Assembly: GCF_037975245.1 (NCBI RefSeq) | Contig: NC_092582.1 | Coordinates: forward strand, 26,352,077-26,416,076 | Length of the DNA stretch: 64,000 nucleotides | DNA from: Apostichopus japonicus | Taxonomy: Eukaryota; Echinodermata; Holothuroidea; Aspidochirotida; Stichopodidae | Direction of reading: 5' to 3' | Part shown: positions 21,561 to 62,111 of the stretch, one piece after another | Position numbering within the stretch: position 1 is the stretch's first letter | How the letters are laid out: the number at the start of each line of letters is the position of its first letter | The notes under the pieces: generated by a model | The model's database searches: none | The model's input: the letters and a program-made list of their open reading frames with translations, nothing else | Told to the model about the DNA's origin: nothing | Program-made: the position numbers and the translations under genes

Positions 21561-21869
21561 GAAAATCGTAATGAGTTGGAAAATCCAGAACAGTGAAAAA
21601 ACTTCCAGCCTCAACCGGAATTCGAACCCGGGCCTCCCACTTTGTACGCGGACACCCTAACCAACTATAGGCCATGGACGCTGATTGTATGTCCAGAGGT
21701 TCGAAACCGGTAAGGATGGTCGTAATTCCACTATAGGCGTTCGTCACTATATATAAACAAAAAAAATTTAAATCTACACTTGCCTTTTCATAAAGTTTTT
21801 CATCATGCATCACACATGATATATAAATAGAGAAAATAAGACATACGTACCAGTCAATGCAGGTGCCAT
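18564..21869 (-). CDS. Monocarboxylate transporter-like protein (SLC16/MFS), complete, five coding exons
   Basis: Minus-strand exons 21869-21851, 21413-21234, 20898-20755, 20044-19187 and 18694-18564 (TGA) join in phase 1 throughout and give 443 aa. The ATG at 21869 encodes MAPALT and is followed at once by a gtacgt donor. The next exon completes an Asp codon: [13 protein letters not shown], the place of the DG-rich conserved stretch before TM1 in MCTs. Exons 2-3 hold TM1 to TM4 ([28 protein letters not shown]). Exon 4 starts [16 protein letters not shown], as in MCT TM4, and holds TM5-6, an acidic cytoplasmic loop of about 50 residues ([14 protein letters not shown]), and TM7-11. The last exon gives [16 protein letters not shown]12 and a basic tail KRKRSN. 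Twelve TM in total. Predicted proton-coupled or facilitative transport of small monocarboxylates or related solutes at the plasma membrane; substrate not deducible. The open frame extending up to 20282 is intron read-through, not a start. Confidence 0.87.
21430..21557. repeat. (AT)n microsatellite in transporter intron 1
   Basis: A run of alternating TA, interrupted by ggatatatat units at its left and one gcc at 21480. It forms the tail of the adjacent minus-strand SINE. Confidence 0.95.
21560..21690 (-). mobile_element. tRNA-derived SINE
   Basis: On the minus strand there is an A-box-like tagttggttagggtg (21667-21653) and a B-box ggttcgaattcc (21629-21618), 24 bp apart, inside a tRNA-like stretch ending ccggttgaggctgg. 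A short body (cactgttctggattttcc) and an AT-repeat tail follow. This is the layout of a tRNA-derived SINE, transcribed by RNA polymerase III in active copies. It lies in intron 1 of the transporter gene, in the same orientation as the gene. A second ggttcgaaacc on the plus strand at about 21697 may belong to another copy or be chance. Confidence 0.72.
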
Positions 21870-25703: not shown

Positions 25704-26069
25704 GTGTATCAATATGACAGATCACCTGATAACTGTGTTTGCGTAGACAGGTTACGGAATGACCGGACTGAACCTGGCCGACAGAGCTAGCAAACAGCAA
25801 ATTATACTCTAAAGTAGGTATAATGCGATCACCTGGCTGTAACGTGACAAACCGTGTGAATGATGAAGGCAAAGTGGGTAATATAGGATAGCATACAGTA
25901 ACACTTGGAAGAGTCCAAGTTAACGTGTTTTCTATTTATGCAAGTGCGTTGATTGTCCAAACAATTCAAATTACAATTCTCAATACTGGCGTACACATGA
26001 TTGACAAGGTGGAGAAGGGGTGGGGAGGGACTTTTTTCACGAATGAATCAATACAAACCTTAATACTAC

Positions 26070-29000
26070 CCGAATCAAGCAGAACAGCAAAAACTGTGGA
26101 CTTCCAATAATTGCTAAGTAAATCAAACAGTATCACAATTTTGTCTAATTAAATGACCATCATATATCAGAATGCAAGGCACATTTTTCTTTAGTTTTGT
26201 TGAGTTTTCATGACAATCGAAGTGGGTCTACTATCAGCAGCAGGCGCATTCCGGCAGCGCCCTCATCTCCTACTTGCAAAAAATACTACACTAAACAGCG
26301 AAAACAGCCAAAATGACAACCCCATTTAATTGCTCAATTTAACCCCGTGATAATTTTTGTGCCAGCAATTGACCATCATAAATGAATGTAGGGGACATTA
26401 TTCTTTCATTTTCATGACTTTTCATGACAATCGAAGGGGGTCTACTATCAGCAGCAGGCGGATTCCGGCAGCGCCCTCATCGGCTCAATGCAAAAATACT
26501 ACACTAAACAGCGAAAACAGCTATAATGGCAACCCCCATTAATTGCTCAATTTAACCCCGTGATAATTTTTTTTCCATCAAATGACCATCATAAATGAAT
26601 GTAAAGGACATTATTCTTTCGTTTTCATGACTTTTCATGACAATCGAAGGGGGTCTACTATCAGCAGCAGGCGCATTCCGACAGCGCCCTCATCGGCTAG
26701 TTGCAAAAATTATACACTAAACAGCGAAATCAGCCAAAATGACAACCCCAATTAATTGCTCAATTTAACCCCGTGATAATTTTTGTGCCATCAAATGACC
26801 ATCATAAATGACTGTAGGGGACACTACTCTTTCGTTTTCATGACTTTTCATGACAATCGAAGGGGGTCTACTATCAGCAGCAGGCGGATTCCGGCAGCGC
26901 CCTCATCTCCTACTTGCAAAAAATACTACACTAAACAGCGAAAACAGCCAAAATGACAACCCCAATTAATTGCTCAATTTAATCCCGTGATAATTTTTGT
27001 GCCATCAAATGACCTTTCTCAATGCATTTGAGGGACATTATTCTCTCGTTTTCATGACATTTCATGACAATCGAAGGGGGTCTACTATCAGCAGCAGGCG
27101 GATTCCGGCAGCGCCATCATCAGCTAGTTGCAAAAATACTACACTAAAGAGCAAAAACAGCCAAAATGACAACCCCCATTAATTGCTCAATTTAACCCCG
27201 TGATAATTTTTTTGCCATCAAATGACCATTCTCTATGCATTTAAGGGACATAATTCCCTCGTTTTCATGACTTTTCATAACAATCGAAGGGGGTCTACTA
27301 TCAGCAGCAGGCGGATTCCGGCAGCGCCCTCATCGGCTAGTTGCAAAAATACTACATTAAAGGGCGAAAAAAAGCCAAAATGACAACCCCAATTAATTGC
27401 TCAATTTAACCCAGTGATAATTTTTTTGCCATCAAATGACCATCATAAATGAATGTAAAGGACATTATTCTTTCGTTTTCATGACTTTTCATGACAATCG
27501 AAGGGGGTCTACTATCAGCAGCAGGCGCATTCCGGCAGCGCCCTCATCGGCTAGTTGCAAAAATTATACACTAAACAGCGAAATCAGCCAAAATGACAAC
27601 CCCAATTAATTGCTCAATTTAACCCCGTGATAATTTTTGTGCCATCAAATGACCATCATAAATGACTGTAGGGGACACTACTCTTTCGTTTTCATGACTT
27701 TTCATGACAATCGAAGGGGGTCTACTATCAGCAGCAGGCGGATTCCGGCAGCGCCCTCATCTCCTACTTGCAAAAAATACTACACTAAACAGCGAAAACA
27801 GCCAAAATGACAACCCCAATTAATTGCTCAATTTAATCCCGTGATAATTTTTGTGCCATCAAATGACATTTCTCAATGCATTTGAGGGACATTATTCTTT
27901 CGTTTTCATGACATTTCATGACAATCGAAGGGGGTCTACTATCAGCAGCAGGCGGATTCCGGCAGCGCCATCATCAGCTAGTTGCAAAAATACTACACTA
28001 AAGAGCAAAAACAGCCAAAATGACAACCCCCATTAATTGCTCAATTTAACCCCGTGATAATTTTTTTGCCATCAAATGACCATTCTCTATGCATTTAAGG
28101 GACATAATTCCCTCGTTTTCATGACTTTTCATAACAATCGAAGGGGGTCTACTATCAGCAGCAGGCGGATTCCGGCAGCGCCCTCATCTCCTACTTGCAA
28201 AAAATACTACACTAAACAGCGAAAACAGCCAAAATGACAACCCCAATTAATTGCTCAATTTAACCCCGTGATAATTTTTGTGCCATCAATTGACCATCAT
28301 AAATGAACGTAAAGGACATTATTCTTTCGTTTTCATGACTTTTCATGACAATCGAAGGGGGTCTACTATCAGCAGCAGGCCCATTCCGACAGCGCCATAA
28401 TCGGCTAGTTGCAAAAATACTACACTAAACAGCGAAAACAGCTATAATGGCAACCCCCATTAATTGCTCAATTTAACACCGTGATAATTTTTGTGCCATC
28501 AAATGAATATCATAAATGACTGTAGGGGACACTACTCTTTCGTTTTCATGACTTTTTATGACAATCGAAGGGGGTCTACTATCAGCAGCAGGCGCATTCC
28601 CGCAGCGCCCTCATCGGCTAGTTGCAAAAATTATACACTAAACAGCGAAAACAGCCAAAATGACAACCCCAATTAATTGCTCAATTTAACCCCGTGATAA
28701 TTTTTGTGCCATCAAATGACCATCATAAATGACTGTAGGGGACACTACTCTTTCGTTTTCATGACTTTTCATGACAATCGAAGGGGGTCTACTATCAGCA
28801 GCAGGCGGATTCCGGCAGCGCCCTCATCTCCTACTTGCAAAAAATACTACACTAAACAGCGAAAACAGCCAAAATGACAACCCCAATTAATTGCTCAATT
28901 TAACCCCGTGATAATTTTTGTGCCATCAATTGACCATCATAAATGAACGTAAAGGACATTATTCTTTCGTTTTCATGACTTTTCATGACAATCGAAGGGG

Positions 29001-32000
29001 GTCTACTATCAGCAGCAGACGCATTCCCGCAGCGCCCTCATCGGCTAGTTGCAAAAATACTACACTAAACAGCGAAAACAGCCAAAATGACAACCCCAAT
29101 TAATTGCTCAATTTAACCCCGTGATAACTTTTCTGCCATCAAATGACCATCATAAATGAATGTAAAGTACACTACTCTTTCGTTTTCATGACATTTCATG
29201 ACAATCGAAGGGGGTCTACTATCAGCAGCAGGCGCATTCCGGCAGCGCCATCATCAGCTAGTTGCAAAAATACTACACTAAAGAGCGAAAACAGCAAAAT
29301 TGACAACCCCCATTAATTGCTCAATTTAACCCCGTGATAATTTTTGTGCCAGCAAATGACCATTCTCAATCCATTTAAGGGACATAATTCTCTCGTTTTC
29401 ATGACTTTTCATAACAATCGAAGGGGGTCTACTATCAGCAGCAGGCGGATTCCGGCAGCGCCCTCATCCGATCCATGCAAAGTACTACACTAAACAGCGA
29501 AAACAGCTAAAATGACAACCCCCATTAATTGCTCAATTTAACACCGTGATAATTTTTGTGCCATCAAATGACCATCATAAATGAATGTAAAGGACATTAT
29601 TCTTTCGTTTTCATGACTTTTCATGACAATCGAAGGGGGTCTACTATCAGCAGCAGGCGCATTCCGGCAGCGCCCTCATCGGCTAGTTGCAAAAATTATA
29701 CACTAAACAGCGAAAACAGCCAAAATGAAAACCCCAATTAATTGCTCAATTTAACCCCGTGATAATTTTTATGCCATCAAATGACCATCATAAATGACTG
29801 TAGGGGACACTACTCTTTCGTTTTCATGACTTTTCATGACAATCGAAGGGGGTCTACTATCAGCAGCAGGCGCATTCCGGCAGCGCCCTCATCGGCTAGT
29901 TGCAAAAATTATACACTAAACAGCGAAAACAGCCAAAATGACAACCCCAATTAATTGCTCAATTTAACCCCGTGATAATTTTTGTGCCATCAAATGACCA
30001 TCATAAATGACTGTAGGGGACACTACTCTTTCGTTTTCATGACTTTTCATGACAATCGAAGGGGGTCTACTATCAGCAGCAGGCGGATTCCGGCAGCGCC
30101 CTCATCTCCTACTTGCAAAAAATACTACACTAAACAGCGAAAACAGCCAAAATGACAACCCCAATTAATTGCTCAATTTAATCCCGTGATAATTTTTGTG
30201 CCATCAAATGACCTTTCTCAATGCATTTGAGGGACATTATTCTCTCGTTTTCATGACATTTCATGACAATCGAAGGGGGTCTACTATCAGCAGCAGGCGG
30301 ATTCCGGCAGCGCCATCATCAGCTAGTTGCAAAAATACTACACTAAAGAGCAAAAACAGCCAAAATGACAACCCCCATTAATTGCTCAATTTAACCCCGT
30401 GATAATTTTTTTGCCATCAAATGACCATTCTCTATGCATTTAAGGGACATAATTCCCTCGTTTTCATGACTTTTCATAACAATCGAAGGGGGTCTACTAT
30501 CAGCAGCAGGCGGATTCCGGCAGCGCCCTCATCGGCTAGTTGCAAAAATACTACATTAAAGGGCGAAAAAAAGCCAAAATGACAACCCCCATTAATTGCT
30601 CAATTTAACCCCGTGATAATTTTTGTGCCATCAATTGACCATCATAAATGAACGTAAAGGACATTATTCTTTCGTTTTCATGACTTTTCATGACAATCGA
30701 AGGGGGTCTACTATCAGCAGCAGGCGGATTCCGGCAGCGCCATCATCGGCTAGTTGCAAAAATACTACACTAAACAGCGAAAACAGCTATAATGGCAACC
30801 CCCATTAATTGCTCAATTTAACCCCGTGATAATTTTTGTGCCATCAAATGACCATCATAAATGAATGTAAAGGACATTATTCTTTCGTTTTCATGACTTT
30901 TCATGACAATCGAAGGGGGTCTACTATCAGCAGCAGGCGGATTCCGGCAGCGCCCTCATCTCCTACTTGCAAAAAATACTACACTAAACAGCGAAAACAG
31001 CCAAAATGACAACCCCAATTAATTGCTCAATTTAACACCGTGATAATTTTTGTGCCATCAAATGACCATCATAAATGACTGTAGGGGACACTTTTCTTTC
31101 GTTTTCATGACTTTTCATGACAATCGAAGGGGGTCTACTATCAGCAGCAGGCGGATTCCGGCAGCGCCCTCATCTCCTACTTGCAAAAAATACTACACTA
31201 AACAGCGAAAACAGCCAAAATGACAACCCCAATTAATTGCTCAATTTAACCCCGTGATAATTTTTGTGCCATCAATTGACCATCATAAATGAACGTAAAG
31301 GACATTATTCTTTCGTTTTCTTGACTTTTCATGACAATCGAAGGGGGTCTACTATCAGCAGCAGGCCCATTCCGGCAGCGCCATCATCGGCTAGTTGCAA
31401 AAATACTACACTAAACAGCAAAAACAGCTATAATGGCAACCCCCATTAATTGCTCAATTTAACCCCGTGATAATTTTTGTGCCATCAAATGACCATCATA
31501 AATGAATGTAAAGGACATTATTCTTTCGTTTTCATGACTTTTCATGACAATCGAAGGGGGTCTACTATCAGCAGCAGGCGCATTCCGGCAGCGCCCTCAT
31601 CTCCTACTTGCAAAAAATACTACACTAAACAGCGAAAACAGCCAAAATGACAACCCCAATTAATTGCTCAATTTAACCCCGTGATAATTTTTGTGCCATC
31701 AAATGACCATCATAAATGACTGTAGGGGACACTACTCTTTCGTTTTCATGACATTTCATGACAATCGAAGGGGGTCTACTATCAGCAGCAGGCGGATTCC
31801 GGCAGCGCCCTCATCTCCTACTTGCAAAAAATACTACACTAAACAGCGAAAACAGCCAAAATGACAACCCCAATTAATTGCTCAATTTAACCCCGTGATA
31901 ATTTTTGTGCCATCAATTGACCATCATAAATGAACGTAAAGGACATTATTCTTTCGTTTTCATGACTTTTCATGACAATCGAAGGGGGTCTACTATCAGC

Positions 32001-34440
32001 TGCAGGCGCATTCCCGCAGCGCCCTCATCGGCTAGTTGCAAAAATTATACACTAAACAGCGAAAACAGCCAAAATGACAACCCCAATTAATTGCTCAATT
32101 TAACCCCGTGATAATTTTTGTGCCATCAAATGACCATCATAAATGAATGTAAAGGACACTACTCTTTCGTTTCCATGACTTTTCATGACAATCGAAGGGG
32201 GTCTACTATCAGCAGCAGGCGCATTCCGGCAGCGCCATCATCAGCTAGTTGCAAAAATACTACACTAAAGAGCAAAAACAGCCAAAATGACAACCCCCAT
32301 TAATTGCTCAATTTAACCCCGTGATAATTTTTTTGCCATCAAATGACCATTCTCTATGCATTTAAGGGACATAATTCCCTCGTTTTCATGACTTTTCATA
32401 ACAATCGAAGGGGGTCTACTATCAGCAGCAGGCGGATTCTGGCAGCGCCCTCATCGGCTAGTTGCAAAAATACTACATTAAAGGGCGAAAAAAAGCCAAA
32501 ATGACAACCCCCATTAATTGCTCAATTTAACCCCGTGATAATTTTTGTGCCATCAATTGACCATCATAAATGAACGTAAAGGACATTATTCTTTCGTTTT
32601 CATGACTTTTCATGACAATCGAAGGGGGTCTACTATCAGCAGCAGGCGGATTCCGGCAGCGCCATCATCGGCTAGTTGCAAAAATACTACACTAAACAGC
32701 GAAAACAGCTATAATGGCAACCCCCATTAATTGCTCAATTTAACCCCGTGATAATTTTTGTGCCATCAAATGACCATCATAAATGAATGTAAAGGACATT
32801 ATTCTTTCGTTTTCATGACTTTTCATGACAATCGAAGGGGGTCTACTATCAGCAGCAGGCGGATTCCGGCAGCGCCCTCATCTCCTACTTGCAAAAAATA
32901 CTACACTAAACAGCGAAAACAGCCAAAATGACAACCCCAATTAATTGCTCAATTTAACCCCGTGATAATTTTTGTGCCATCAATTGACCATCATAAATGA
33001 ACGTAAAGGACATTATTCTTTCGTTTTCTTGACTTTTCATGACAATCGAAGGGGGTCTACTATCAGCAGCAGGCTCATTCCGGCAGCGCCATCATCGGCT
33101 AGTTGCAAAAATACTACACTAAACAGCAAAAACAGCTATAATGGCAACCCCCATTAATTGCTCAATTTAACCCCGTGATAATTTTTGTGCCATCAAATGA
33201 CCATCATAAATGAATGTAAAGGACATTATTCTTTCGTTTTCATGATTTTTCATGACAATCGAAGGGGGTCTACTATCAGCAGCAGGCGCATTCCGGCAGC
33301 GCCCTCATCTCCTACTTGCAAAAAATACTACACTAAACAGCGAAAACAGCCAAAATGACAACCCCAATTAATTGCTCAATTTAACACCGTGATAATTTTT
33401 GTGCCATCAAATGACCATCATAAATGACTGTAGGGGACACTACTCTTTCGTTTTCATGACATTTCATGACAATCGAAGGGGGTCTACTATCAGCAGCAGG
33501 CGGATTCCGGCAGCGCCCTCATCTCCTACTTGCAAAAAATACTACACTAAACAGCGAAAACAGCCAAAATGACAACCCCAATTAATTGCTCAATTTAACC
33601 CCGTGATAATTTTTGTGCCATCAATTGACCATCATAAATGAACGTAAAGGACATTATTCTTTCGTTTTCATGACTTTTCATGACAATCGAAGGGGGTCTA
33701 CTATCAGCTGCAGGCGCATTCCCGCAGCGCCCTCATCGGCTAGTTGCAAAAATTATACACTAAACAGCGAAAACAGCCAAAATGACAACCCCAATTAATT
33801 GCTCAATTTAACCCCGTGATAATTTTTGTGCCATCAAATGACCATCATAAATGAATGTAAAGGACACTACTCTTTCGTTTCCATGACTTTTCATGACAAT
33901 CGAAGGGGGTCTACTATCAGCAGCAGGCGCATTCCGGCAGCGCCATCATCAGCTAGTTGCAAAAATACTACACTAAAGAGCGAAAACAGCAAAAATGACA
34001 ACCCCCATTAATTGCTCAATTTAACCCCGTGATAATTTTTGTGCCATCAAATGACCATTCTCTATGCATTTAAGGGACATAATTCCCTCGTTTTCATGAC
34101 TTTTCATAACGATCGAAGGGGGTCTACTATCAGCAGCAGGCGGATTCCGGCAGCGCCCTCATCGGCTCAATGCAAAAATACTACACTGAGGAGCGAAAAA
34201 AAGCAAAAATGACAACCCCAATTAATCGCTCAATATAACCCCGTGATAATTTTTGTGCCATCAAATGACCATTCTCAATGCATTTAATTAACATTTTTCT
34301 CTCGTTTTCATGACATTTCATGACAATCGAAGGGGGTCTACTATCAGCAGCAGGCGGATTCCGGCAGCGCCCTCATCGGCTAATTGCAAAAATACTACAA
34401 TAAAGAACAGAAACATCAACAATGACAGCCCCCATAATTG
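26070..34440 (+). repeat. Left array: about 39 copies of a 213-bp unit
   Basis: Starts of equivalent positions are spaced 213-214 bp (for example 31905, 32118; multiples 427, 640, 854). Each unit contains ggcgctgccgg-type sequence (here ccggcagcgcc), ctatcagcagcaggcg, two catgac words in ttcatgacttttcatgac, and accccgtgataatttttgtg. The first unit (about 26070-26190) and the last (to 34440) are degenerate. Larger blocks are duplicated: four units, 854 bp, at about 26570 and 27424; eight units, 1708 bp, at about 31264 and 32972. A 61-codon open frame recurs in many units as a by-product. Confidence 0.95.
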
Positions 34441-36531
34441 CTGTGAGACTTAACTATGTTGTTTGAAAGATAAGTTATTCGAAACGGGTTAACAAATTAC
34501 TATCACCAACCGTTGTGGAGTTATCAGCGTTTAACCGAAATTGGATAATTGGAACCGTTCACTTTAACTTTGAAGTTGCCTGAAAACTAGAGCTGTGGAT
34601 GTAAAAATTGCCCCAATCGTCTCTGTCGTTTATTGATCTACGAATTTATATTCTAATACTTTTCCTCTAAGTGAGGGCGCTATTTCATACAGCAATTTCC
34701 TATTTAATGAAATCATTAGAAATTTACGCAGGATATGTAAAATGTTTTTCCGTATCTGATGAGTGTATTTTAAAGTAAATTAAGACTCAGAATACTTTGT
34801 TATTAAGTGCACTTTATATTAAAGTAAAGTAACTACTAATTTAACATACTTTCTTTAGAGATGCCTTGGCACAAATTAATTCATTACACCATTAATACAA
34901 AATGTATGCGGTGAAAGTGTTGTGAAAACTTTCATAATGAACTACTCCGGTCTTCTACATAATCTGCATACACCATCCTATTGGCAACCGTCGGGGAAAA
35001 GAAGACAACACTGTGAAAATTAGTTTTCAAACATGCTTTCGGAGGTGGGGGATGTTGAGCCCATTCCATTTTAAAGTAGGTGTCTAGAAGTGCATGAGTG
35101 TCGTAGTTGATTACATTTGTCATTTTTCTTCTGTAAATTTAAAACGAGGTGGGAGGGGGGGGGGGTGGGTTGCACAATACATCCATAAAGGTGAATTTTC
35201 AAAACCTCCCAAAAGAAAGAGATTCTGTAGTAATTTTGTAATAGACAGAAAATGAAATGAAAAAGACATACTCAAATACACTCAAGAAAGATACAGTCGA
35301 CGAAATAATAAGCTTGCTACAGTTGCATTTATGTACAACTACTTTAATTAGTTCTTGCCACATACGCCATGCACGTTTCTGGCTTTATGTACATTACACA
35401 AAATGAAACTCGTTTCAACTTCTAGGTGCTGTTTTTTCTGCATTATTTAAAGTAGCACACCTTGTGAGGATACTCACATCATAAAATCAGGCACAAACTA
35501 TCCAGGTATACTTATTAAAACCACATCTCGGGAGCATGCTGGATGAGGAAGATAACAAATATTCAACATATTCATTTCACGGCAGTGCATTGCATGATGG
35601 GAAATATTCGTTTCACATAAAATTTGTTGATCAAAGCCTTTGTTTTTCTGTATTATCTAGACACACACGTAAATGGCACGTGTAAACACTTGGGTGTCTG
35701 TTTTTTTTTAAGTTTACTAAATCTAACCTGACACGGGGTGTTGTAAAATTCCGATGTCAAATAATGCATAACATTTAAGAAACAGCAAACATTTCGGTTG
35801 TATTTTTTGTGATATTATACCATGTAATAACCGTGCAGAAAGATGAATGAGGATGGAGGGCCCAAAGGCAGTCCAAAAATGAAATAAATGCAGAATGTAA
35901 ACCACCTCCATAAATTCTACGATCTTCTTTTTTCCATCGTTATTATTCCTCGCAAAGAACTATAGTCTTTGAAGATAGTTAAGATAGATACTTTGTGAAA
36001 AGAGAAAAGCAAATTACCATAAACATTATACTAGCATGAAGAAAACCTTCTTAAACATGTTTTCCTACCCACCCTGCAGGTTAGACCAGTAAACCGGTCT
36101 TAACTGAAGTCCTGCCTGTAAGACAGCTGATATTTGCAGACCTCATTGTAGCTTTTAATACGGTTTCTCTTAGTGTAATTTTCGATCTTAAGAATAAAGT
36201 TAATTTTACAGTAGAAATACACAGGACTTAAATGATTAATTCAGCGTGTTTACATGTACGATGCTTGTTGCAAAGTTGACATCAGAGTAAACAAGGTACT
36301 ATATAGACCAAATAAGGTTAAACAATTTTGCCATTAAATTACCGTCATAATCGAATGTAAGGGATATTATTGTTTTGTTTTAGTTACATATGGGATAATC
36401 AAATCGGATGTTTTTCTTTCGGTTACAAACGCTGGCCACACATACAACACACTACAAGGGGTTGCTCCCGTATACATAGCGCAGATGCTTAGTTTATAGT
36501 TTGACCTCTTATGTATTGATCATAGAAGCTC
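34441..36531. other. Non-coding stretch between left array and the protease gene
   Basis: No exon recognised. It is probably the 3' UTR of the minus-strand gene (adjacent to 36532) plus element interior. It includes a lone degenerate array unit at 36325-36400, and a G run at about 35152-35168. Confidence 0.5.
36325..36400 (+). repeat. Lone degenerate partial copy of the 213-bp unit
   Basis: attttgccattaaattaccg and the following tcgaatgtaagggatattattg align with the part of the array unit that reads ttttgccatcaaatgaccat. It is in the left-array orientation, 1.9 kb away from that array and close to the gene's stop codon. Confidence 0.55.
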
Positions 36532-39500
36532 CTAACTACGGGAAAGTATTGTAGTCGCTATGCGTCGTCTCTCGTAAGGTATATCATTCCATTTGACGTC
36601 TTTATTCAAACCCGTTGCGCTTTCGGCCAAGAGGCAAGTAAATACGCCGCAGTCACTCATGTTTCCTTGTTTGGCTGCGTCAGTTTTCATTCGAAAACGC
36701 CATTCATCTAGATTAAGAGATCTCTCAGTATTTGCGATCAATAAAAATTGTTTGATATGGTCGAGGTGTGTTTTGTTGTTCGTATTATTAAGAGAATCGT
36801 AGTAGACAACCTCGCGCTGAATGTTATCCACCACCACTAAAGTCCAATGAGAAACAGAATTTATGGGAATTAATAAGAAATCTTGCTGAAATATATCGGA
36901 ATTGCTACACCACCTATAAGCTTTGTCGTACCCATCGTTCAACAGGCTAGAAAAAAAGAATGTTGAGAAGGGGAATACCTTTGTGTTTAAAGATTTCTGA
37001 GCTGCCTCTGATAAAAGATTAAGATAAAAGTTAATGATATTGTCGTTTAACCACCCGTCCGGCTCCATCAGCAACTTCAAGTCGTTCACCATAACGTTAA
37101 TGCCAAATCCCCTGGTCACGGGTCGTCGTTGTGGGTTAAATAGGTCTTCGGCTACCTCGTCCTCCGTCGTCAAATCGATAATATCATCGGCACATTCTAT
37201 ATTTTTCTCAATGTTTTCCGTTGATCGATCCTGCTCAATAACAGGTGAGCGATTGTCATGTTTACCTTCTTTAGTTATCTGTGAATGTCCAGTGGTATGG
37301 TCAGATGTGCTAGTAGGGTTGCATACTTTCTCGTGGTACATGTCGTCCTTGGTCTGGGTTTTGCGCGTTTGTGTGACGAAACTTGAGTTAGACAGTGTTG
37401 GAGTCGTCGGTGAATTTTGTGTGTCAACATTGTCAACCTTTTCGTATACACATATGTATGCGTTATTAGCTGTTACTGTATGCAATGTCGACCCCAGGCT
37501 TGTATTGTCGTCTGCCACTGCCCATCCTGTCGAAGTTTTAAACAATGTTTGGTAATGTCCAGTACCAGTACTCTCACCAATGTGTTGAACCACAGTAGAC
37601 AAAGCATACACGGTGCATATCTTAGTAGGGATAACTAAATACTCTTCAATCTCTACAAAGCTACTGTCCTTTAATATTTGTTTACTTTTGCTATCGTAGT
37701 TATAACGTAGCAAGTGGACTATGAGCACTGGAGGTATTACGGTTAAAGACCTACTGATATCAAAAGTTTTATTTTTTTTACAGATATCACAATTAATAAA
37801 AGCAGAATCAGCGTTAAAATTGCAACAAATCAAGTCACTCATTGTGGTGTCGAATCTTGTGTTAGATATGGCTACCTGAAACATACAACCTGTTTCCTTT
37901 TTGATCTTTACACTACTGCACGACCTACACTTTGAATTCGTTTCCATCGTAAAAAGGATTTTGTCTGTCATACGCAAATGCGAGAGTAGTTGTATTGGTC
38001 CCTTAAGGAAAAATTCGCTGGCATCACACTGCGTACCTCTTTCAAAATCGCACAATGCGCACATAACTTTAAGAGTATGGATCATTTCGCTATCACTTAC
38101 AACCCTGCCGTGAAATAAGCTTCTCGATATATCTAGCAAAGTGTTAAGTCGCGAGTCACTCACGGATAAGGTACTTTCCCGGAAACATCTGTCTATGCTG
38201 CCAATACGAATAAATGACTGCAAAACTGAACTGAACCAGCAGTTATTTTCTAGATTTTGAAGCGGGGTGAACATAGGAACAACGTTGTCATATACGTTGT
38301 GACATTCGCTTGCCATGTCTCCACCTGTATATTCATTAATATTAACATTAGAAAGCACATTTCGTTCTTCATGAACGTTCTTATGGGGTGATTTTTGATA
38401 TACTGAACCCTGTGAATGTGATCTTTTTCGCGACCATTTTTCACGTATTAAGTTGGTGTTGCGTTTATCACCTGACTTATAGAAGTGTTTTACTGCATCT
38501 GAAAAAATAATTTCTAATCCACGAGAGTCTTTTGTTAATTCCTCGACAAGTTCGTCTATGCGATGAAATTTTCGTTTCCCTAACTGTATTTGCTTTAAAA
38601 CCCCCATACGTTGCTCCGAATGAGCTATAGACCGTGGAAACGAAATGCTGCTTGGTTGTCCATTTGCAACCTGCCATTTATGAAGAGAACTTGGTAGCAT
38701 ATCTGACCAAAGTGGTGCAGATGGAAGCAGGATTCTCTGTATCTCTTTTAGGAAAGTTACACAAAAGTAGGAGTTATGGTCGTCTCCAGTAGGTACTCCG
38801 GTGTAGTGACTGTTTCTGCAATCGAGGCGACCTTTCTCTATAACTTTACTAAAATGTTCAGTGAAAGGGGAATTCATACGGGAAAGGAATGCATCTTCTG
38901 ACAAATTAGTGCTGTTATTGTCAGAGGCAAAGTCGGTGTTACCTACAAAGAGGGGAGATAGTTCGTCTTTCTGTCCATTACCTTCTATGGATAAAGCTGT
39001 TATTCTTTGGTGTAATCTCTTTAAGCAAGACGATACTAGGGGTGACGCGCATTGGGACGAAAGAACAACAGAAATATCATAAACAATACATGCGAATGCT
39101 TTCAGGGAGCACGCATTAACCAGTAAGCTCAAGCAAAACATTCCAAAACGGTAGTGTTTTTTGTAATGTTTTTTTGTTAAATCTTTGCAATTTTTCATAA
39201 AGTGACCAATACATGCATGCGGTAAGGTTTTGTTACAGTCTTCGTGTGTTAATTTGCCATTCAAAATACTCCATGCACGGTTTAGGAACTGTTTGTAAGT
39301 TTCGTTGTTGAAAACATGCATGGCAGCCAATAAGAATACCCATGCCCTATCACTGTTGATTTGTACAGGGGTTGATATGCTACCATGCCCAAATAAAAGT
39401 TTTTCTTTATGTCTAAAAACGTTTAACCAATTCATAATGACAGGTAGACTTTGATCTTCGGATAATAGTATGGACACCGGCAAGGTTGACTTACCCTTTG

Positions 39501-42166
39501 TTAAATTTCTAACAGACAACTCATAATACAAAATTTGCTTTTTACCATGGCCTCTGTCCAACACCCCACCGGTCGCATCCCAGAATACTACGTCTGTTCT
39601 ACACATATCGTGCCATACCCTTAGTCCTCCTTCCGTGAAACATATTATATACATCGGACTAACAGATATTTGTTGTATGAAGCCGGGAACCCTACCACGA
39701 TGGTTATATTTTAAACAGTACTTCTGCTGCTTTTTTAGAAGACTTTTGATTTCGTCTTCATCATCACGTTCCTTAGACCTACTCTCACTTGAAATTTTCT
39801 GCATGACAGACAGCGTCCTGCCACAGTCGTTTCTGTTACCCGATGCTATAACTTCTGAAGATTTAGAAGACAGATTCCGTAAAAGAACTTTCATTGGCTT
39901 CACACCCATTGAGAGGGTCTTTCCCGCTAATCTCCTATCTAAGCCCCTAATTGGCCGAGCATGGATGTCGTACATGCTGTGCTTCATGTTTCCATTGAAG
40001 TTCACCGTGCATGAAAAGTTTCTATCCATGGAAATGAGTACGCTTACGGAACAATCTGCAAATTTGCAATACCCCTTGGCCCGGAATATCGTTTCACTAG
40101 TGTTATTGTCTATAAGATAATGGTATTTAAACATGATTACACAATAAGGGTTTATTTTAGACATACCATCTACGAAATACTTTTGCCATTCCCCTGTGGG
40201 AAGACACCTACCGCGTCTTTTACTTAATACTGTATTATAAGTGTCTGCATTGATTGAAAATGTTCCCTTCTTGGGAAACTGCTTAATAACGTAGTCATCA
40301 TTATTTGCTTGTGATCCAGACAACACACTTAACGTCTTATTTGATACACGGCTGGCAACTTCTGTACTTTCATTCTTACATGAATCGGTGTTTGTATCAT
40401 TACATTCATGGCTTGATTTGGCGGTAGGAGGTTGCGGATGTACTATTTCACTCGAGTTCAAGTTTTCTTTCAACTTAACACCATCTTTATCATGGTGCAG
40501 CTGAAATACATACGTACTTTCCGTTGTTACACTTACCAATACCGCAATAAAATGTTACATTAAAACCAGACTTTACCGTTGAAGGAATACGCATACAGCT
40601 GTAATGGTACCATTCATCACATTGCTTGCAATGGATGTACTGTCGTTTGTTATCATAATACGTTTGACAAGTGCAATACTTTCTTTTCATATTAATGCCG
40701 ACCCAATTACTTGAAAATCTTTCTGGCTTACGTTTCCTCTTTTCCCTTGGTTTCGTTCTTGTTGCTCCTTCTCCCGATTCTACCAGTAATCGTATGTTTC
40801 CTCTGTTATTACACCATATGCTCCGGAGGACCTTCACTGACCTCTTGAGATTTTTTGTCGACCAGCCCAGCTCCATAACGACACTCTCCCAGAAAGCTTT
40901 TGATGGTGATGAGGTAACCGTCACCTTTTTTCTCACTGACGAAATTGCGGCAGAGATCTTGGCATACTCGGTACACGCAGGTCGTCCTCGCTTGTGAGCA
41001 CCGCCCTTTAGCTGAGAGAAATCCCTTGTCGGTGATCGTTCCAGGAAATGTTCGTGTGACTCTTTCTATAAAAGGATAAATTGTATCGCAGGTTATTTAT
41101 CATTTCGGTTCTTGTTTCGTACCACATTCGCATGACTACACAGCAGCTTCACTTAAATGAAACAAATTTTGCACACATTGTAATAAATGATAACTGAAAA
41201 TCAGGTAAATACTGCTTTCAGGCCGATAGTATACGGTCATTTCTTCTCCCCTTCAGGCTTCAGGGCGTAATAGACGTAATAAAAAGAATATTTCAGTGGG
41301 ATTTGAAAGCAGCTTCTAATTGTAACGCTGCCTTCGACCTCGGATGTTATGCTGATACATGCAGTGAATTCACCTTTACTTTCGGAGAAAGATAAAGAAG
41401 GGATAGGGCATATTCCTCTGGGCCGAAAACATGCAGGGTTAGGGTATGGATTGAAGCTGAAACACTTAATACCAGAACCGGTTCTCTGTGTTTGCATCTG
41501 TTTATGTACTAGTACGTACAACGTGAAATATGTTACAAACACTGAATGTGCACCCGGGACCTTGGTGGAGAGCATGGCTCTCGCCGCTATAAATTTGCGT
41601 CGTGACCTTAACGGGGCACTCTATAACCAGCGCCGATATAAACTTAGCGGCTCACATTGACTCGCGCCGCTATATATGACCTTGCGCCGCGCACCGACTA
41701 GCAACGCCATGATCGTGGCGGCGCACAATCACAGCTCAGAATTCAGGCGATCAAATAGCCAGTACAGCAGAGGGAATAGAGGGGGAACCACGCGACAACC
41801 ACGTTAGACAAACCGACGCGCCCTTCTTCACTACAACTCACCTCCCGCACCCAAAACACTAATCCAAATGTAATTCCAATTGCAAAAGCCAATGAAAGGT
41901 CTAAAAATTTCATTCAAAACGAAGCGTTATCTTTATGGTAGTGAACTGACTATAGCCACGCGTTGATAATCAAAGTTTGGTAAAAGAACCTCGTTGGGAA
42001 ACCACTAGCATTCAATTGATAAAAAAATGCTCACCGGACGTTCGTCGCCATGATTCTGAGTTGGCCGTTTGAAGCGAATTGGCGTTGTATTAAACCCACT
42101 TGCCGTAATTGCGTGGTTCCATTGAACCTCCAAGCAATCTTCCTTTCCACCAGTGCGTTCTCCCAT
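36532..42166 (-). CDS. PHD finger - RNase-H-like transposase - USP - Ulp1 protease polyprotein
   Basis: Exons are 42166-42035 (ATG, 44 codons, phase 0, gtgagc donor), 41065 to about 40537, and about 40484-36532; about 1,537 aa if joined so. Exon 2 has KRGRP (AT-hook-like) and a PHD-type zinc finger: YCTC, HCKQC, WYHYSC, YCGIGKC. Numbering in the 40539-36532 frame (1,335 codons): residues about 80-700 look like a DDE transposase (Asp321 in VVFWDATGG, Asp397 in [11 protein letters not shown], then HACIGHF and [10 protein letters not shown]; third acid not fixed). About 760-1045 is a USP: Cys767 in [28 protein letters not shown] zinc pairs, His995 in GHYQTL, ADDN. About 1150-1320 is Ulp1/[16 protein letters not shown], His1231 in SHWTLVV, Asp1248 in YYDSL, Gln1291 and Cys1297 in [10 protein letters not shown]. 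So both proteases keep their catalytic residues. Probable roles are mobilisation of the surrounding element and removal of ubiquitin/SUMO from host or own proteins. The exon 2-3 join is unclear: a 52-bp intron with weak acceptor, or a frameshift. Confidence 0.82.
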
Positions 42167-42228
42167 TTCCGTCGTTACCTGGTACGAGAAAGTTGAGTAT
42201 AGGTCGATACATAAACAACCACACATAT

Positions 42229-42435
<207 letters not shown>

Positions 42436-43614
42436 CGCTCACCATTTCTTGGAGTTAAGGATCAACCTTTTTCTTTCTTTCGAATGCACGAGGTATATGC
42501 CTTTAAGTCATTTTTTTACTATACTTTGCCTCTCCTCATTCTTGAAATTTGTACGCAGTACATATGACAAATAGTGCATTTGGAGATGTTGTTCAGTTGG
42601 TGGTGTATTTTAACGGAAAATTTAACATTAGGCTGGACACTATATGCACATTAGAACATGGGCTACTTGTTTTGAGGTATAATGCCTGTGTCAAATGTTA
42701 TGCCTATATAAATATAGTGAGCCAGAAGTTAAAGCAGCTAAGGTCCAGGAATTTCGTTTTCATGAACAATTTGCTAATGACTTTTATTTTACTGGCAAGA
42801 TTAAAAAAAAACAAGCTGTCGCAGAGACATCAGTAAGCAGATATGGTATATGTGCCACTTTAAGAAAAGATCAATATATATCACGTTAACTTCACTATAC
42901 GGGACAACAATATTAGATCCATATGGCTGTCATATTCTAGCATTACAAAATTACTATCATATTCTAGCATTACAAAATACTTCAGGTTCTTGGCGACTAC
43001 GTTGCGTTAGATAGTGTAAAACCGCCTATACACCCCCATTTCATCTCAACAGTGAGTAATACTGTATAGAAACCAACCATAGCCTTAAAGGAATACCAAT
43101 TATACAAAACCATGATTTTAACATCAGTCAATACTACAAGGTATAACCACTTTCAATAATTAATTCACAAGGGAATACAAATATTGGCAGAAACTATAAC
43201 TAATCTATGTACTATGAAGGAAAAACTGAATGACTGATTACAACAAGTATGTTAATGATCCTATTCAGCAGATAAATCAACTTACGCCAAGATATGCGGC
43301 ATGAACTTCTAACCCCTAAAAGGGAATATGGTAAGAGAGTTACAAACACATACACACAGCGTATGGTCAAGTTAGTGCAATACAAAACTTAAGAACCATT
43401 AATTGTGTTTGTTATAAGCCTTCTTCACTCTGTATCATTGTAGGATATCTTTAATAGGCCAAATTGACGTTATATTTGTCAACTAAAGAGTTCCACAGAA
43501 TTATAAATATAAAAACCTGTCCATTTTACACACAATTAACACATTTAAAACTGGGCAATGATTTTAAAGTACTTTCTCCTTTCAGGTTGGCATATAGACA
43601 TGTAGCTAATATCT

Positions 43615-43615
<1 letters not shown>

Positions 43616-43672
<57 letters not shown>
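43616..43672. repeat. (AT)n microsatellite
   Basis: About 57 bp of alternating AT in otherwise gene-free sequence. Confidence 0.95.
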
Positions 43673-43676
<4 letters not shown>

Positions 43677-44174
43677 GTTAATTTGAAGTAAAATAGGGCC
43701 TATATATATATAGAACAACGACATTTCAGATGAATTATAATTTGTACAACTTTTGCGATTGGGCGCTCCCAATCTACGAAAAGCATGTATCTCCTATGAA
43801 ACCAGTTAACTTTAAACATTCCTTACTAAGACCAATTCAAGGCAAAAACTAGCTACCAAGTGATATCAGGTTTATTAAATGCATTCCGTATGGGTTTTTT
43901 CACGTAATGATATAGACATGATAAAGTAAGAAGATGGAAATAACATAAAATGAAAGCCACGATTTGCTCTGATTACTTACGGATATGTCGGAGGATATTT
44001 TTTCTTCCTGTTGCTTGATAAGTCATCCCATCATACCTCTACATCCTCGTCATCTGGCGTTTGGTATCGCACTTTCGTTAACATTGGATTTATTCATTAA
44101 CAACTAAAATATCGAGTAGAAACGGCTTGCTCCGCTAGGGGAAAGTGCTTCCATATTACTGACCACATCTATTT

Positions 44175-47100
44175 TAAGTATTTAGTGTAGCACTATCTGT
44201 TCATTGAGCTATTGAGGGCGCTGCCGGAATCCGCCTGCTGCTGGTAGTAGACCCACTTCGATTGTCATGAAAAGTCATGAAAATGAAAGAATAATGTCCC
44301 CTACATTCATTTATGATGGTCATTTGATGGCACAAAAATTATCACGGGGTTATATTGAGCAATTAATGGGGGTTGTCATTTTTGCTGTTTTCGCTCTTTA
44401 GTGTAGTATTTTGCATTGAGCCGGTGAGGGCGCTGCCGGAATCCGCCTGCTGCTGATAGTAGACCCCCTTCGATTGTCATGAAATGTCGTGAACATGGAA
44501 GAATAGTGTCCCCTACATATATTGAGGGTGGTCATTTGATGGCACAAAAATTATCACGGGGTTATATTGAGCAATTAATGGTGGTTGTCATTTTTGCTGT
44601 TTTCGCTCTTTAGTGTAGTATTTTGCATTGAGCCGGTGAGGGCGCTGCCGGAATCCGCCTGCTGCTGATAGTAGACCCCCTTCGATTGTCATGAAATGTC
44701 GTGAACATGGAAGAATAGTGTCCCCTACATATATTGAGGGCGGTCATTTGATGGCACAAAAATTATCACGGGGTTAAATTGAGCAATTAATGGGGGTTGT
44801 CAGTTTTGCTGTTTTCGCTCTTTAGTGTAGTATTTTGCATTGAGTCGGTGAGGGCGCTGCCGGAATCCGCCTGCTGCTGCTGATAGTAGACCCCCTTCGA
44901 TTGTCATGAAATGTCGTGAACATGAAAGAATAGTGTCCCCTACATATATTGAGGGTGGTCATTTGATGGCACAAAAATTATCACGGGGTTAAATTGAGCA
45001 ATTAATGAGGGTTGCCATTATAGCTGTTTTCGCTCTTTAGTGTAGTATTTTTGCATTGAGCCGATGAGGGCGCTGCCGGAATCCGCTGCTGCTGATAGTA
45101 GACCCCCTTCGATTGTCATGAAAAGTCATGAAAATGAAAGAGTAGTGTCCCCTACAGTCATTTATGATGGTCATTTGCTGGCACAAAAATTATCACGGGG
45201 TTAAATTGAGCAATTAATGGGGGTTGTCATTTTTGCTGTTTTCGCTCTTTAGTGTAGTATTTTTGCATTGAGCCGATGAGGGCGCTGCCGGAATCCGCCT
45301 GCTGCTGGTAGTAGACCCCCTTCGATTGTCATGAAAAGTCATGAAAACGAAAGAGCAATGTCCTTTACATTCATTTATGATGGTCATTTGATGGCACAAA
45401 AATTATCACGGGGTTAAATTGAGCAATTAATGGGGGTTGCCATTATAGCTGTTTTCGCCCTTTAGTGTAGTATTTTTGCATTGAGCCGATGAGGGCGCTG
45501 CCGGAATCCGCCAGCTGCTGATAGTAGACCCCCTTCGATTATCATGAAATGTCGTGAACATGAAAGAATAGTGTCCCCTACATATATTGAGGGTGGTCAT
45601 TTGATGGCACAAAAATTATCACGGTGTTATATTGAGCAATTAATGGTGGTTGTCATTTTTGCTGTTTTCGCTCTTTAGTGTATTATTTTGCATTGAGCCG
45701 ATGAGGGCGCTGCCGGAATCCGCTGCTGCTGATAGTAGACCCCCTTCGATTGTCATGAAAAGTCATGAAAATGAAAGAATAATGTCCCCTACATTCATTT
45801 ATGATGGTCATTTGATGGCACAAAAATTATCACGGTGTTATATTGAGCAATTAATGGGGGTTGTCATTTTTGCTGTTTTCGCTCTTTAGTGTATTATTTT
45901 GCATTGAGCCGATGAGGGCGCTGCCGGAATCCGCCTGCTGCTGATAGTAGACCCCCTTCCATTATCATGAAATGTCGTGAACATGGAAGAATAGTGTCCC
46001 CTACATATATTGAGGGTGGTCATTTGATGGCACAAAAATTATCACGGGGTTATATTGAGCAATTAATGGTGGTTGTCATTTTTGCTGTTTTCGCTCTTTA
46101 GTGTAGTATTTTGCATTGAGCCGGTGAGGGCGCTGCCGGAATCCGCCTGCTGCTGATAGTAGACCCCCTTCGATTGTCATGAAATGTCGTGAACATGGAA
46201 GAATAGTGTCCCCTACATATATTGAGGGTGGTCATTTGATGGCACAAAAATTATCACGGGGTTAAATTGAGCAATTAATGGGGGTTGTCAGTTTTGCTGT
46301 TTTCGTTCTTTAGTGTAGTATTTTGCATTGAGCCGGTGAGGGCGCTGCCGGAATCCGCCTGCTGCTGATAGTAGACTCCCTTCGATTGTCATGAAATGTC
46401 GTGAACATGAAAGAATCGTGTCCCCTACATATATTGAGGGTGGTCATTTGATGGCACAAAAATTATCACGGGGTTAAATTGAGCAATTAATGAGGGTTGC
46501 CATTATAGCTGTTTTCGCTCTTTAGTGTAATATTTTTGCATTGAGCCGATGAGGGCGCTGCCGGAATCCGCTGCTGCTGATAGTAGACCCCCTTCGATTG
46601 TCATGAAAAGTCATGAAAACGAAAGAATAATGTTCCCTACATTCATTTATGATGGTCATTTGCTGGCACAAAAATTATCACGGGGTTAAATTGAGCAATT
46701 AATTGGGGTTGTCATTTTTGCTGTTTTCGCTCTTTAGTGTAGTATTTTTGCATTGAGCCGATGAGGGCGCTGCCGGAATCCGCCTGCTGCTGATAGTAGA
46801 CCCCCTTCGATTATCATGAAATGTCGTGAACATGGAAGAATAGTGTCCCCTTCATATATTGAGGGTGGTCATTTGATGGCACAAAAATTATCACGGGGTT
46901 AAATTGAGCAATTAATGGGGGTTGTCAGTTTTGCTGTTTTCGCTGTTTAGTGTAGTATTTTGCATTGAGCCGGTGAGGGCGCTGCCGGAATCCGCCTGCT
47001 GCTGATAGTAGACCCCCTTCGATTGTCATGAAATGTCGTGAACATGAAAGAATAGTGTCCCCTACATATATTGAGGGTGGTCATTTGATGGCACAAATAT

Positions 47101-48035
47101 TATCACGGGGTTATATTGAGCAATTAATGAGGGTTGCCATTATAGCTGTTTTCGCTCTTTAGTGTAGTATTTTTGCATTGAGCCGATGAGGGCGCTGCCG
47201 GAATCCGCTGCTGCTGATAGTAGACCCCCTTCGATTGTAATGAAAAGTCATGAAAATGAAAGAATAATGTCCCCTACATTCATTTATGATGGTCATTTGC
47301 TGGCACAAAAATTATCACGGGGTTAAATTGAGCAATTAATTGGGGTTGTCATTTTTGCTGTTTTCGCCCTTTAGTGTAGTATTTTTGCATTGAGCCGATG
47401 AGGGCGCTGCCGGAATCCGCCTGCTGCTGATAGTAGACCCCCTTCGATTGTCATAAAAAGTCATGAAAACGAAAGAGCAATGTCCTTTACATTCATTTAT
47501 GATGGTCATTTGATGGCACAAAAATTATCACGGGGTTAAATTGAGCAATTAATGGGGGTTGCCATTATAGCTGTTTTCGCCCTTTAGTGTAGTATTTTTG
47601 CATTGAGCCGATGAGGGCGCTGCCGGAATCCGCCTGCTGCTGATAGTAGACCCCCTTCGATTGTCATGAAATGTCGTGAACATGAAAGAATAGTGTCCCC
47701 TACATATATTGAGGGTGGTCATTTGATGGCACAAAAATTATCACGGGGTTAAATTGAGCAATTAATGAGGGTTGCCATTATAGCTGTTTTCGCTCTTTAG
47801 TGTAGTATTTTTGCATTGAGTCGATGAGGGCGCTGCCGGAATCCGCCTGCTGCTGATAGTAGACCCCCTTCGATTGTCATGAAAAGTCATGAAAATGAAA
47901 GAATGATGTCCCCTACATTCATTTATGATGGTCATTTGCTGGCACAAAAATTATCACGGGGTTATATTTAGCGAAACATTGGGGTTGTCAAATTACCTGT
48001 TTTCGCTCTGTAGTGTAATATTTCTGCATTGCGAT
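44175..48035 (-). repeat. Right array: about 18 copies of the 213-bp unit, inverted
   Basis: Same unit as 26070-34440 but reverse-complemented: ggcacaaaaattatcacggg, attgagcaattaatggggg, gagggcgctgccggaatccg, gatagtagacccccttcg and cctacattcatttatgatgg are visible in order. Variants are shared at 3-unit and larger spacing (for example ccgctgctgctgatag at 45086, 45720, 46568 and 47210), so blocks of units have been duplicated. The outermost copy (about 47950-48035) and innermost copy (about 44175) are degenerate. Confidence 0.95.
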
Positions 48036-48960
48036 TTTATAAAATACCTTATTAAATCATATTCAATCCTCATCATTTTTCAGACCATCAGTAATATCCA
48101 AGCATAAAAAAGTAATGTGATGACTCACAAAATCTCCCCAAAATCAATAAAGCAGGTTAGTTTAGGGTTATTTTCCGAAGTTTAACCTCTCAGATCGACG
48201 TACACTAATCTAACTTTTTTAGTGATACGTCAATAACCCCGGAGTTTATTTTCCAATCTCCCTACGAGCAAACAGACGAAGAATATCTAACATCAATACA
48301 AACTTCACTTGTCAATTGGGAAATTGAGCGTAAAGAATGAGGTACAGTTTGCGCCTTCTTTTAATTCCTTAAAATTAACAGACTAAAAACTTCGCCAATT
48401 TTGTCTATTTCCCCTGTCCCTTCGTTCTCAAGAGCATCTCACTTCGCATGGTAACGTTTTTGCTGTTAACAACATTTTCCGCATATTTCACATAATTTGC
48501 GGTCAGCCTTTGACCCAAACAGCCAACCTCCGCGACTACAGTGTTGAACTTTAGCGACGACGTTTTTTTTCGAGATACCTTCCTTTGCTTCCTTGGAATG
48601 CTCGATTGTCTGTGCAACCTGCATGAATTCAATACCCTATTCGAGGTAGACGCTGTTCATTTTCAGCGATCTGTCAGAGGTCTGTTGGCCAGCTTCAGCC
48701 CGGTTACGGAATGTACGTACCTGCAGTACGTGTTCCCTTCTTTACTTCCATGCACTAAGATATAGAGCTTAGGCGACCCAAGGAGCTGCTACTCTAACAG
48801 CTCCCTGGGCGACCTAAGTACACATGCATCCATATGTTGTAACGCTGATACGTTACATAGGATTTTTCCATTCGTACGAGGTCTGCTCTCAAGTGACGGT
48901 GGTGCTGACTCTGGAGCGATAGGAGCATGCTCTCCCTGTTAGTATTTAGTCTAGCAAAAG
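48036..48960. other. Intergenic/promoter side of the ALDH9-like gene
   Basis: Lies between the right array and the ALDH9-like start. The last part should be the 5' UTR and promoter, but no core element could be fixed. It contains a hairpin at 48768-48818. No convincing exon on either strand. Confidence 0.45.
48768..48818. repeat. Hairpin near the ALDH9-like promoter
   Basis: cttaggcgacccaaggagctg pairs with cagctccctgggcgacctaag across a 9-base loop, with a few mismatches. About 170 bp upstream of the ALDH9-like start codon. Could be a small foldback repeat or an RNA hairpin. Confidence 0.6.

Positions 48961-48990: not shown

Positions 48991-62111
<13,121 letters not shown>

Follow-up and report, generated by a model that had tools for sequence, protein, structure and literature searches.

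The DNA window analysed here, meaning the whole stretch of 64,000 nucleotides from Apostichopus japonicus (contig NC_092582.1; G000:C22:26352077-26416076), contains a putative transposon of 22,943 bp (25762-48704). Two inverted arrays of a 213-bp repeat, both lying inside the ends of the element, enclose one gene that encodes a predicted DDE transposase and two protease domains in a single protein (Table 1). The genome of the same organism (671.6 Mb, 35 contigs; labels such as C3, C4 and C8 denote its contigs) was searched with a 1335-amino acid (aa) protein, with at least 44 matches and with 35 of 141 candidates scored. Four further near-full copies of the gene, one each on C3, C14, C4 and C8, share 98-99% protein identity and form together with the window copy the set of five near-full copies used below. 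The surrounding 40 kb was compared for each of the four (500 bp more for C8).

Table 1. Features of the putative transposon and of its gene, in positions of the window
Feature	Position	Strand	Remark
Left target-site duplication	25753..25761	.	TACGGAATG; identical to 48705-48713
Left terminal inverted repeat	25762..25788	+	about 27 bp, starts ACCGG; same terminus in 5/5 near-full copies
Left terminal domain (LT)	25762..26061	+	outside the array; copy homology begins at 25762; present elsewhere in the genome
Left arm	26062..34442	+	39 units of 213 bp and a degenerate outer part
Interior without coding match	34443..36531	.	nearly all kept in two gene-less copies
Main frame, 1340 aa	36532..40554	-	predicted DDE transposase, UCH, Ulp1
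Ulp1/SENP-type domain PF02902 (Peptidase_C48)	36556..37053	-	E 2.2e-26; SENP1 E 8.2e-32
Ubiquitin-specific protease domain UCH PF00443	37444..38262	-	E 8e-21
Putative catalytic core D326-E647 (1340-aa numbering)	38614..39579	-	alignment of 12 related sequences of the same genome
Upstream frame with PHD finger	40493..41065	-	in the window copy, reading frame differs from that of the main frame
Right arm	44181..48028	-	18 units, inverted
Right terminal domain (RT)	48029..48704	-	outside the array; last ~27 bp form the right inverted repeat
Right target-site duplication	48705..48713	.	TACGGAATG; identical to 25753-25761

The scanning of the region between the arrays, covering 2 gene frames and 5 small frames, revealed Pfam matches above the cut-offs in the main gene only, which bears out the original prediction, made from the letters of the window, that a single gene lies there. 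The 1340 aa of the main frame far exceed what chance would give: in each of 20 shuffles of the window by two-base blocks the longest open frame reached 112-217 aa. Motifs of both proteases have been identified in the protein, and we take them to be the active-site boxes of UCH and Ulp1. The PHD finger of the window copy (PF00628) has an E-value of 2.7e-7 and 30.9 bits against a cut-off of 24. The copies on C3, C14, C4 and C8 possess a single open frame of 1509 aa; the order PHD, UCH, Ulp1 was found in all three of these frames that were scanned, each with a PHD match of 25.9 bits, close to the cut-off. Since four other near-full copies keep this one frame, the window copy is considered to be frameshifted. 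The open 1509-aa frame in the four copies speaks against the alternative of a small intron that would separate the PHD frame from the main one. No THAP domain appeared in the Pfam scans of the gene frames and 1509-aa frames.

The putative catalytic residues were identified in the alignment of 12 related sequences: D326, D402, H446 and H451 are conserved in 12 of 12, W616 in 10 of 10 and E647 in all 8 that reach it. Identity in this alignment goes down to 24%, and several of the sequences are near-identical, so the independent number is smaller.

Tandem Repeats Finder placed a left array with a 213-bp period at 26151-34442 (38.8 copies, 91% matches) and a right array with a 212-bp period at 44202-48031 (18.0 copies, 92% matches). 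The core motif of the unit occurs 39 times on the plus strand (26225-34335) and 18 times on the minus strand (44235-47847), and outside both arrays it is absent from the window with up to 3 substitutions allowed. The original prediction had given about 39 plus and 18 minus copies within 26070-48035; the numbers agree, and the limits are close to the span of unit homology, which covers 26062-34442 and about 44181-48028. Its statement that the outermost unit is the most divergent was not confirmed: it is the innermost units that deviate most from the consensus (19.9% and 23.7%), as against 7.1% and 6.1% for the outermost full units, and only the partial units beyond the latter are degenerate. 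Mean divergence between units is 8.3% within the left arm, 8.5% within the right arm and 12.0% between the arms. The left arm contains multi-unit duplications, units L25-L29 pairing with L33-L37 at 0-1.4%. The least variable part of the unit is a core of about 46 bp that contains the palindrome CGGATTCCG; an equally low variability of the 46-column window was obtained in 29 of 5000 column permutations. A search of 26000-28500 against Rfam returned zero families at E<=1.

The arrays had also been taken for the ends of the element. Identity between the copies continues past them, however, through unique terminal DNA: on the left for 300 bp, or 225 bp in C14, and on the right for 676 bp. Sequence homology among the near-full copies breaks off at ACCGG ends, give or take a few chance bases, and the end sequences are ACCGGACTGAACCTGGCC... 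and, inverted, ACCGGGCTGAAGCTGGCC.... Directly outside, perfect 9-bp target-site duplications, all different, are present in five of five near-full copies: TACGGAATG (window), CAAAGAAAT (C3), CTATTGAAC (C14), AACGGGAAT (C4) and TGTGAATGT (C8). Placed in register, the two ends of the window copy agree at 23 of their first 30 bases. A permissive local alignment of the whole LT with the whole RT scored 47, compared with a mean of 39.8 and a maximum of 58 for shuffled sequences. As the terminal inverted repeat is short and the alignment of the terminal domains is no better than shuffles, the arrays constitute the main inverted repeat of the element. Array edges were likewise considered as candidate ends and rejected, since the duplications found there (one exact 9-mer with 0.48 expected; four 8-mers with 1.6 expected) are little above chance and the true ends lie at 25762 and 48704.

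Inverted 213-bp arrays flank the gene in all five near-full copies. The left/right unit numbers are 39/18 in the window and 26/17, 23/33, 42/33 and 15/39 in C3, C14, C4 and C8, and the respective lengths are 22,943, 20,324, 22,524, 27,599 and 34,917 bp; about 12.7 kb of other DNA interrupts the interior of the C8 copy. The check put forward with the original prediction, namely to look for further gene copies between inverted arrays and to read the target duplication, thus gave a positive answer on both points, and its central claim, that the inverted arrays enclose a transposase/protease gene within a giant transposon, is supported. Over 1.96 kb of non-coding interior (34443-36400), the four other copies differ from the window by 0.8-2.1%. 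For the coding part, mean nonsynonymous (pN) and synonymous (pS) differences are 0.0046 and 0.0121 in the 10 pairs of the five copies, and pN/pS ranges from 0.20 to 1.05 with the first three codons excluded and few changes per pair. The low divergence and the excess of pS over pN therefore indicate, on these few changes, that the copies spread recently and that the protein is under constraint. The element is recently mobile.

The genome search with RT gave 40 matches, 18 of them with 89-100% identity over 588-676 of the 676 bases, and that with LT gave 36. Pairing of the terminal domains by neighbourhood and orientation resulted in 17 elements of 2.3-83.3 kb, of which C17b and C17c, with a truncated right domain, were left out of the duplication check. 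Both ends were checked in the 15 others: 11 have identical 9-bp and 2 identical 8-bp duplications, C17a has 7 of 7 visible bases duplicated beyond a 13-bp repeat of the element end, and C20 has a duplication of 6 bp only. Beyond the near-full copies, this amounts to 10 elements (6 perfect 9-bp, 2 perfect 8-bp, C17a and C20), and C11, C4b, C8b and C3b each carry a duplication of their own. C9a and C9b were counted as one insertion because their flanks are identical. The unit search yielded at least 514 matches; the 150 listed form 15 clusters, all located inside the 17 elements, so the unlinked satellite named with the original prediction as a ground for abandoning it was not encountered among them. 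The smallest copy, C22b (2,275 bp), is too short to hold more than about 6 units and has an 8-bp duplication. The C10 element (C10:4292981-4304216) carries the right terminal domain at both ends, with an identical 8-bp duplication; a gene fragment was observed within it at 4297846-4298667.

The giant units C9a (80,590 bp; C9:36358889-36439478), C9b (83,283 bp; C9:36447244-36530526, with shared flanks) and C8b (76,002 bp; C8:36962927-37038928) have the same ends and identical 9-bp duplications. Twenty pieces were sampled from them (11 of C8b, 9 of C9a); one matched the array, one the known interior, and one, in the C8 unit, holds a fragment of a related transposase. In the remaining 17 there was no match to element parts or to the sister family described below, bar 28 bases in one piece. 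The interiors of the giant units may be cargo or nested insertions.

The relationships among the 285 units of the five near-full copies describe how the arms evolve. The nearest neighbour lies on a same-side arm for 281 units (205 within the own copy, 76 in another) and on the opposite arm for 4 of the 285. With the own arm excluded, all 10 innermost units are nearest to a same-side innermost unit of another copy; among the 10 outermost units, 8 are nearest to an outermost one, and the two exceptions come from the right arms of C3 and of the window copy. Left-arm and right-arm units thereby prove to be distinct lineages kept across copies. Given these lineages and the unit number of 15-42, the arms grow and shrink mostly by within-arm exchange; length changes affect their middle part, and the identity and position of the arms are retained.

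In two gene-less copies, C20 and C3b, the interior is reversed relative to the ends, while the five near-full copies agree mutually. The outermost units of C20 and C3b are of the type that belongs to their own side (left or right), the innermost are of the opposite type with clear margins, and some intermediate units are mixed or nearly tied in type. From this pattern we infer that the turned interior arose by recombination between the inverted arms. The two copies represent one event rather than two, because they have a common deletion and a common nested insert of about 4.9 kb. This insert was observed within the left terminal domain (C20:1530943-1536180 and C3:11455406-11460649), and its break shows an 8-base overlap (168-175), possibly the target duplication of another transposon.

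A sister family, 39-40% identical to the main protein, is represented on C12, on C8 at 40.42 Mb and on C20 at 28.37 Mb. Its C12 copy (C12:23367099-23373149; L008, L028) contains a 2017-aa frame with PHD, UCH and Ulp1 and is 40% identical in the DDE region. A tandem array with a 49-bp unit (17.7 copies) lies outside the block compared for this copy; no inverted end or duplication was found, the left end not having been reached. The right end of the C12 copy seems to resemble the terminal repeat of the main family over TGAAGCTGGC.

Taken together, the block, which measures 22,943 bp in the window, is very probably a DNA transposon that moves by cut and paste and is of the Mutator-like/Rehavkus kind. 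Movement with a 9-bp staggered cut at the ACCGG ends is well supported, and the cut would be made by the DDE core. The arrays may serve as sub-terminal multi-site binding regions, loading many transposase molecules through the ~46-bp core of the units; this step is moderately favoured by analogy, because of the position and orientation of the arrays, the constant core (with the caveats below) and the precedent of Galileo. UCH and Ulp1 might remove ubiquitin and SUMO at the complex, or else shield the transposase against being silenced or turned over by the host, a role that follows from the domains and has about an even chance of being correct. From the domain content we infer that the PHD finger would guide the transposase to chromatin. 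It is conceivable, though doubtful, that one protein unites chromatin reading (PHD), DDE transposase, de-ubiquitinase and de-SUMOylase functions, with kilobase-long satellite arms acting as loading platform and inversion switch, that the system moves very large cargo, and that the arms seed satellite DNA; the cargo is suggested because the same ends bound units of 76-83 kb with 9-bp duplications.

Several observations weigh against this reading. The DDE region matched zero Pfam families at E<=10 and zero NCBIfam or PDB sequences, for which reason the assignment rests on motif order, and a single-sequence AlphaFold model of the transposase reached a predicted local distance difference test (pLDDT) value of 34.6. 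In the window copy the PHD finger and the remaining domains lie in different reading frames, and the C4/C8 pair has a pN/pS of 1.05, on few changes. In the core test, the window width was set after the profile had been seen, the two innermost units were omitted, identical units were merged, and the permutation of columns ignores the shared ancestry of units; constraint on the 46-bp core is therefore only suggested. No array of the 200-bp type was found in the 14.4-kb block that the C12 sister has in common with the C8 copy, about 1 kb of coding sequence remaining unscanned, and this suggests that arrays may be dispensable for some relatives. Finally, mobility is read from the sequence, by way of ends, duplications and dispersed copies.

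The array-loading step, and this step only, is challenged by the possibility that the arrays are a passenger satellite expanded inside MULE-like (Mutator-like element) ends, with no role in transposition. The unit number of 15-42, the internal duplication within the arms, the lack of arrays in the compared block of the C12 sister and the 8-bp duplication of C22b with about 6 units at most all suit it. It is judged somewhat unlikely, as inverted arrays are kept at both ends in all arms read (five near-full and two gene-less copies), the ~46-bp core is unusually constant within the limits of the core test, and the Galileo transposase binds its tandem repeats (PMC3688188; this and the papers cited below were available in excerpt). 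A reading without any mobile element, in which two satellite blocks came to lie on either side of a host protease gene by coincidence or through an inversion, could appeal to the satellite-like multi-unit duplications of the left arm; the occurrence of arrays, common ends and perfect 9-bp duplications in five of five near-full copies on five contigs, with 15 of 15 listed unit clusters inside elements, makes this vanishingly improbable.

Spread of the copies by segmental duplication instead of transposition is a process that does occur in this genome, as C9a and C9b share flanks and duplication. It is refuted for the five near-full copies, whose homology ends at ACCGG with an own 9-bp duplication each, and the individual duplications of C11, C4b, C8b and C3b leave it extremely unlikely as a general account. 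A P-superfamily element resembling Galileo would have the foldback-like repetitive ends in common with the present one (PMC3688188); the lack of THAP in the Pfam scans, the 9-bp duplications and a motif order as in MULE and hAT enzymes (PMC5225508) render such an assignment very unlikely.

The protein and the unit core were searched for in viral contigs and in prokaryote genomes, and a 331-aa DDE piece in the viral contigs as well, with no confirmed relative; a few stretches fit the peptide pattern, and the unit core had zero matches. Elsewhere in the window, frames matching reverse transcriptase (PF00078) at 6175-7134 and 8445-10424 are probably retrotransposon remnants. A separate 37-bp tandem array of about 41 copies occupies 55078-56598, and another tandem array, with reported periods of 88 and 135 bp, lies at 61063-62079. 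A tRNA-like match at 21607-21681 (30.6 bits against an Rfam cut-off of 29) is situated about 50 bp from an AT microsatellite.

One genome offers a family with open genes, precise ends and target duplications, in which some copies have turned interiors and one has two right ends. Three questions become open to experiment with it: what makes DNA transposons retain satellite arms, how such arms might seed satellite DNA, and for what reason proteases of ubiquitin and SUMO would be part of a transposase.

Among the papers listed by a literature search, none dealt with a fusion of PHD, DDE, UCH and Ulp1; Repbase was outside its reach, and absence is not claimed. Ulp1 has reportedly been discussed alongside a DDE transposon in the case of the Ginger transposons, whose integrase-like transposase differs (PMC2836005). 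Among the described systems, Muta1 of Aedes is 3.2 kb long, with 8-9 bp duplications, a 12-bp repeat present nine times in the ends, a FLYWCH domain and the catalytic order D-D-H-W-E, of which H and W occur also in Hermes; in Muta1 derivatives the number of tandem repeats in the inverted ends varies (PMC5225508). Tm1 of Meloidogyne has 9 bp duplications and mostly 14-bp repeats in a variable number of 1-9 copies (PMC3169594). The present element resembles both in duplication length and in tandem repeats inside inverted ends, and differs in the repeat (213 bp versus short ones) and in a PHD instead of a FLYWCH zinc finger; proteases go unmentioned in the excerpts on Muta1 and Tm1. Tetris of Drosophila virilis has tandem repeats of about 220 bp in foldback ends that can grow into satellite arrays, and in contrast to the family described here it is non-autonomous, its transposase gene not having been found (PMC4079207). 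Galileo likewise possesses long, internally repetitive ends, and the DNA-binding domain of its transposase binds sites in their tandem repeats (PMC3688188); it differs by a THAP domain and a P-type transposase.

With regard to the features of MULEs, a duplication of 8-10 bp and the D-D-H-W-E order are present and a match to a Pfam transposase model is absent; long inverted tandem-repeat ends of variable number correspond to foldback elements, though the arrays are sub-terminal. The closest descriptions are those of Rehavkus, of which very few have been identified, in Repbase only, from insect or annelid hosts; they are characterized by a PHD finger, a 9-bp duplication, a minisatellite near one end and a terminal inverted repeat of 26-400 bp (PMC6446971). 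Rehavkus-1_TC of Tribolium, with 9.5 kb, has a 164-bp repeat in inverted termini, in short arrays of mostly five and eight monomers (PMC10218199). By description, the common features are (i) the PHD finger, (ii) 9-bp duplications and (iii) a tandem satellite in inverted ends, whereas the present element is set apart by its size of 20-35 kb, by arms that each comprise 15-42 units of a different repeat, and by UCH with Ulp1. The original prediction that this is not a standard element is not supported as regards the design, array-type ends having precedents in Rehavkus-1_TC, Tetris, Galileo and Muta1; the size, the arm length and the double-protease fusion exceed the published Rehavkus descriptions as excerpted, a comparison that leaves aside the protease content of Rehavkus proteins. 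On these descriptions, the element is best filed as a giant variant of the Rehavkus/foldback MULE-type transposons.

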